Positions 9,624 through 10,106 of a stretch of 40,337 nt of DNA are shown here, piece after piece (position 1 is the stretch's first letter; each line of letters starts with the position of its first letter). Below the pieces are notes generated by a model. That model saw only the letters and a program-made list of their open reading frames with translations, did not search any database and was not told the origin of the DNA. The stretch comes from Thermoplasmata archaeon (GTDB taxonomy: Archaea; Thermoplasmatota; Thermoplasmata; Thermoplasmatales; ARK-15), in NCBI GenBank assembly GCA_038729465.1, contig JAVYRZ010000008.1:1-40337 (forward strand), written 5' to 3'. Made by a program: the position numbers and the translations under genes.

Positions 9624-9692
9624 CCTTTTATCGTTCTCCAATTACATTTTTTGTATCATAATATCATAAGGGATCTTTACTTCTATAAGAAA

Positions 9693-9764
9693 GCCACCGC
9701 TGGGAATCGGACCCAGGGCCTCGTGCTTACCAAGCACGCGCTCCACCGACTGAGCTACGGTGGC
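9693..9764 (-). tRNA. tRNA-Thr (GGT anticodon)
   Basis: A complete 72-nt cloverleaf without intron and without encoded CCA. Acceptor stem GCCACCG pairs perfectly with CGGTGGC; D stem is GCTC/GAGC; anticodon stem CGTGC/GCACG encloses TTGGTAA with anticodon GGT; the variable loop is 5 nt; T stem CTGGG/CCCAG encloses TCCGATT. G15 is present, the site of archaeosine. The T loop has C rather than T at position 55. The first ten bases overlap the end of the winged-helix gene. A weak TATA-like AAATAT lies about 33 nt upstream inside that gene. Confidence 0.97.
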
Positions 9765-9967
9765 AATTGTTTTTTACCTTTTTCACTTAAGGCATATTTG
9801 CATCTGGCAGGAGAATTTATAAGTTCATCCTTAGCTAGAATTTTTAGCTTAGCAGATATTTTATTGGCTGGTAATCCTGATAGTTTGCCAATTTCTGCAG
9901 AGCTCAAAGGTTTATCTGCATCGGATAATACTTTCAAAATCTTCTCTGTTATTTCGTCAGGCGCCAT
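9755..9967 (-). CDS. Small winged-helix DNA-binding protein
   Basis: A 70-residue protein that is essentially one winged helix-turn-helix: helix 1 EITEKILKVLSDADKP, then SSAEIGKLSGLPANKISAKLKIL as the HTH, and a wing ending in KYALSEKGKKQL. It resembles small archaeal MarR/ArsR-like regulators; target unknown. The start at 9967 is chosen because AGGTGA lies 5 nt before it; an in-frame start at 10000 lacks this. The last codons and the TAG stop are made from bases 1-10 of tRNA-Thr, so the gene overlaps the tRNA by 10 bp. Confidence 0.72.
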   Translation of the reverse strand: MAPDEITEKILKVLSDADKPLSSAEIGKLSGLPANKISAKLKILAKDELINSPARCKYALSEKGKKQLPP

Positions 9968-10106
9968 ATATTTCACCTGAAATAGATTATTGAAATACAC
10001 TATTTAATCATTTTGATTATTTTTATTTAAAAATGATATATAATTATTGACCTTAATAGAATCTGTTTGCAATAAGAGCTCAATAGCTTTTCTGACATTT
10101 ATAATC

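Follow-up and report, generated by a model that had tools for sequence, protein, structure and literature searches.

Why should a small gene for a DNA-binding protein take its stop codon from inside a tRNA gene, and are the two made from one RNA? The question is raised by a 40,337-nt stretch of DNA from a Thermoplasmata archaeon (here called the window), one contig of a 40-contig, 1.34 Mb assembly (genome G000), in which a winged-helix gene runs into tRNA-Thr on the same strand. For one protein of the window, the closest relatives bearing a name were Thermoplasmata MAGs. The junction comprises the following features:

9755..9967, minus strand: winged-helix DNA-binding protein gene, 70 codons, span including the stop codon (translation, Pfam, orthologs)
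9692..9764, minus strand: tRNA-Thr, anticodon GGT (ARAGORN; Rfam RF00005, 66.8 bits)
9755..9764, minus strand: overlap of gene and tRNA, tRNA bases 1–10 (from the sequence; same in genomes G003 and G004)
9973..9978, minus strand: Shine-Dalgarno-like AGGTGA, 5 nt before the winged-helix ATG (read from the sequence)

Translation of 9967..9755 on the minus strand yields MAPDEITEK...KGKKQLPP, a 70-residue frame terminated by TAG, and the ARAGORN placement of the tRNA puts this TAG on bases 8–10, confirming the original prediction that the winged-helix stop codon is T8-A9-G10 of tRNA-Thr. The codons are split across the junction such that TT together with G1 encodes Leu, bases 2–4 (CCA) and 5–7 (CCG) each encode Pro and bases 8–10 (TAG) are the stop. 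The overlap as first described stood, whereas the tRNA end did not: ARAGORN places it at 9692, one base beyond the earlier 9693. Among approximately 135 sampled tRNAs from five genomes (listed tRNAs, not complete sets), 70 carry TAG at or adjoining positions 8–10, so that TAG ends any frame read into such a tRNA in that phase; the exact choice of this stop is not surprising in itself.

Pfam searches assigned the protein to HTH_12 (25.4 bits, cut-off 21.4) and HTH_24 (23.3 bits, cut-off 21.9); the matches were to winged-helix families only, and a tRNA-related domain was absent from them. The frame can be extended to a GTG at 10000; the ATG at 9967 lines up with the start codons of both orthologs (G003 and G004). 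Within the five genomes of the family that were compared (f1: G000–G004), orthologs at the tRNA-Thr position were found only in these two, which belong to another genus and encode proteins 43% identical to that of the window. Comparison of the gene–tRNA junction in relatives, to which the original prediction had pointed, revealed an identical junction in both: the proteins end in LPP or MPP, and the TAG that follows is bases 8–10 of the same tRNA. The values of pN and pS were 0.11 and 0.76 between G003 and G004, and 0.34–0.35 and 0.76–0.90 between the window gene and either ortholog. As pN is far below pS, the sequences indicate that the winged-helix gene is real, translated and under strong purifying selection. 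Synonymous sites are saturated and the junction is still retained in three genomes of two genera, which argues that the overlap is not due to chance.

The remaining two family members are uninformative on the junction, because the G001 contig begins exactly at tRNA-Thr, which leaves the upstream gene position outside the contig, and G002 contains no close copy of tRNA-Thr(GGT), the winged-helix gene or the downstream gene. In G028, which is placed in a different family, tRNA-Thr is 96% alike and the flanking genes are as in G003, with the winged-helix gene absent between them. When 117 genomes of the order were searched with a profile, strong winged-helix matches came only from G000, G003 and G004, the others being weak and more distant, and nine more distant winged-helix loci from the first search had no tRNA nearby; the homologs in family f4 lie before a redox-like gene, not a tRNA. 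As a side observation, the small winged-helix homologs in families f4 and f5 (L006–L012) are directly upstream of redox-like genes that by eye resemble peroxiredoxin or rubrerythrin.

Next, the same junction was found at an unrelated gene, that for KptA (RNA 2′-phosphotransferase, Pfam PF01885), which in G028 and each of the five f1 genomes is followed directly by tRNA-Ala(TGC):

L068:2178-2936 (G003), L105 (G004), L141 (G028), L048 (G000), L129 (G002) and L165 (G001): KptA/tRNA-Ala(TGC) loci

The KptA stop codon is T8-A9-G10 of this tRNA in G003, G004 and G028 and lies 0–1 nt before it in G000, G001 and G002, and in several genomes of the related family f4 tRNA-Ala begins 22–66 nt past the stop. 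The KptA junctions form a graded series from spacer through abutment to overlap, with the stop inside the tRNA in some relatives and outside it in others, which is what near-neutral compaction would lead one to expect. KptA/Tpt1 is itself a tRNA-related enzyme.

Tight packing extends to further genes. A single base is shared, the G of TAG being G1 of the tRNA, between a membrane protein gene and tRNA-Thr(CGT) in G003 and G004 and at tRNA-Ala(CGC) and tRNA-Arg(CCG) in G012, a genome of another family; other genes that abut a tRNA or share one base with it are PdxS (tRNA-Arg), S3Ae (tRNA-Ser), an Lrp-type regulator gene (tRNA-Pro) and a TrmB-type regulator gene (tRNA-Ala(CGC)), and abutments recur in genomes of other families (G007 and G012). 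Per f1 genome, 4–8 of the 23–31 sampled tRNAs overlap an upstream stop codon or follow it by no more than 12 nt, and the share abutting one is approximately 1/6 to 1/4. The arrangement at tRNA-Thr looks like the extreme of the tight packing of tRNAs behind genes that is common in this order, and is not special to a regulator. Separately, tRNA-Arg(TCT) with a near-identical upstream coding sequence occurs on two G000 contigs (L053 on C20 and L054 on C33), representing a small duplication or an assembly artefact.

We then turned to the promoters. Unsupervised motif finding gave position-free, unreliable matrices for the tRNA promoter and was replaced by a seeded, position-weighted TATA/BRE matrix built from tRNA upstream regions. 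The median TATA score was −0.4 for tRNAs that follow a gene by 12 nt or less (n = 20) versus 7.0 for tRNAs whose nearest 25 nt contain no gene end (n = 79; Mann–Whitney p = 9e-8); orthologs are non-independent data points in this comparison, and parts of both sets had been used to train the matrix. tRNAs that abut upstream genes are mostly without a TATA box. Two sites concern the window:

10001..10014, minus strand: AAAATGATTAAATA, highest-scoring BRE/TATA-like site ahead of the winged-helix gene, at −47 of its ATG (PWM 5.2)
9788..9801, minus strand: weak TATA-like site, a possible separate tRNA promoter, GCAAATATGCCTTA, at −37 of tRNA-Thr, inside the gene at wing codons K-Y (PWM −0.1)

In the orthologs, near-perfect promoter-like sites are located 36 nt before the winged-helix ATG (10.5 in G003 and 10.1 in G004), and these are also the best such sites within 270 nt before tRNA-Thr. 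In G028 the same strong element is retained, without the winged-helix gene, 136 nt before tRNA-Thr.

A single transcript for gene and tRNA, on which the original prediction was premised, is likely on this evidence, because the junction leaves no space for a terminator, the promoter of the winged-helix gene is the strongest upstream site in two orthologs and abutting tRNAs lack TATA boxes. We therefore consider it probable that tRNA-Thr is the 3′ cistron of the winged-helix transcription unit and that the overlap reflects compaction through loss of the spacer; most likely, the 3′ end of the winged-helix transcript would be the source of at least part of the tRNA. RNA polymerase would start at the winged-helix promoter and read through into tRNA-Thr, RNase P would cut at G1 and 3′ trimming, presumably by RNase Z, would yield the mature tRNA. 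The protein would come from uncut transcripts, or from ribosomes that had finished before cleavage, and the cut mRNA would end ..AAA-CAA-UU, with no stop codon, and be handled by Pelota/ABCE1 rescue. Genes for RNase P RNA and for the nonstop-rescue factor Pelota were found in G000, G003 and G004. After the gene's own stop codon had gone, the conserved U8-A9-G10 would have been a ready and strongly constrained replacement. We infer in this way read-through transcription, cleavage of the mRNA and the absence of a dedicated regulatory role. Simple gene compaction, offered by the original prediction as the alternative, is favoured over regulatory coupling, since KptA has the same overlap, moving in and out among relatives. 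The retention of the overlap in all three winged-helix orthologs speaks against this reading, in that constraint beyond compaction could also account for it.

The strongest rival, which we regard as unlikely but worth weighing, combines compaction with separate promoters, such that tRNA-Thr has its own TATA box at −36 within the coding sequence and a short transcript supplies most of the tRNA. The best site of the tested interval lies at −36/−37 in each of the three orthologs, which is the usual distance for tRNAs of the family; it scores 5.1 in G003 and 4.4 in G004, values near the middle of the leave-one-out scores of other tRNAs and reached by only 6–9% of random coding windows. Against this, the site of the window genome scores only −0.1, like random coding sequence, and the protein accounts for the conservation of the site, since conserved wing codons occupy the same bases; the codons TTC-CTT give C where the matrix prefers T or A. 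Even with such a promoter, transcripts of the winged-helix gene would by necessity extend into the tRNA.

In a second rival, RNase P cleavage is in competition with ribosomes on their way to the stop codon inside the tRNA, such that fast tRNA processing yields less regulator and slow processing more; in addition, the tRNA would fold less readily while a ribosome terminates at its base 10. The geometry of the overlap, its retention in three of three orthologs at saturated synonymous divergence and the same model proposed for selB and tRNA-Sec (PMC8124441) speak for this reading. We nevertheless judge it improbable, as KptA shows the same overlap, gained or lost between relatives, the abutting genes, including those for ribosomal protein S3Ae and PdxS, have no apparent common logic and G028 has tRNA-Thr without the winged-helix gene. 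Coupling of regulator level to tRNA supply through RNase P cleavage is unsupported, given that the unrelated KptA shares the overlap and the stop shifts between relatives; a regulatory switch at this junction is possible, with nothing specific in its favour.

Downstream of tRNA-Thr, the next gene in G003 and G004 (seen in loci L072:4810-6719 and L004:226-1507, respectively) starts 4 nt past the 73rd base of the tRNA, so that the mRNA set free by 3′ processing would have almost no leader. By eye from its sequence, we take this gene to be S-adenosylmethionine hydroxide adenosyltransferase-like. The cluster of tRNA-Thr, this gene, a YjbQ-like gene and a membrane protein gene is conserved in G001, G003 and G028 and partly seen in G004; no copy of this neighbour or its cluster was found in the window genome, in which a radical SAM gene follows tRNA-Thr. 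At the tRNA-Thr(GGT) loci of family f4 (L020–L038), the ATG of another gene (MFKSK...) lies a few nucleotides after the tRNA. A broader form of control, for which we see little chance, would have a set of Thermoplasmata proteins (the winged-helix regulator, KptA and others) governed by tRNA maturation: transcripts that yield a tRNA would become nonstop mRNAs, processing in G003 and G004 would free a near-leaderless downstream mRNA and archaeal tRNA punctuation would balance tRNA against protein. Last, that the frame is a spurious ORF merely running into the tRNA is hardly credible: it is short, and a tRNA gives a stop in one of three phases, but the Pfam scores exceed the curated cut-offs, the orthologs have pN far below pS and promoter-like sites stand at the right distance.

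The arrangement resembles systems that are already known. In animal mitochondria, tRNAs abut coding sequences without spacer, and processing at their 5′ and 3′ ends defines the ends of the mRNAs. The present loci likewise have same-strand tRNAs directly abutting coding sequences in spacerless junctions, and processing would define mRNA ends; unlike mitochondria, this archaeon has no genome-wide polycistrons, and its RNase P is archaeal and RNA-based.

Another close parallel is selB, which overlaps selC (tRNA-Sec) in Proteobacteria and Nitrospirae, with stops within the tRNA included (Mukai 2021, PMC8124441); in Dyella and Luteibacter the selB stop lies at tRNA-Sec bases 46–48 (PMC8124441). It was hypothesized there, as a hypothesis only, that processing of tRNA-Sec yields a nonstop selB mRNA, and tRNA genes within protein genes in mitochondria are cited (PMC8124441). 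In both cases an upstream protein gene on the same strand ends inside the tRNA, relatives exist with and without the overlap and, in ours, the overlap is kept among relatives while the protein diverges. By contrast, SelB handles that very tRNA, and the whole tRNA is often inside the ORF, whereas the winged-helix protein matches winged-helix families only and is unrelated to the tRNA that it overlaps, the overlap is limited to 10 bases, in the genome of an archaeon, and the conserved U8-A9-G10 serves as the stop. In Archaea, tRNA-Lys is located in the 5′ UTR of TK0306 in Thermococcus kodakarensis (PMC4247193), and tRNA precursors merge with mRNA in Nanoarchaeum equitans (PMC3491384). These examples also place tRNA and mRNA on one archaeal RNA, as proposed here, but in them the mRNA follows the tRNA (or tRNA half), and coding overlap is absent. 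Our literature search found no paper on U8-A9-G10 stop codons or tRNA punctuation in Archaea. As far as the literature searched shows, the kind is already known, and the archaeal setting, the U8-A9-G10 stop and the recurrence in unrelated genes are new.

If co-transcription holds, an archaeal order would obtain a sizeable share of its tRNAs by cutting them out of mRNA 3′ ends, and translation of some mRNAs would need tRNA bases in order to terminate. It would then be possible to test in Archaea what becomes of nonstop mRNA once RNase P has cut, and real genes would be overlooked by annotation pipelines in which ORFs that overlap tRNAs are discarded.
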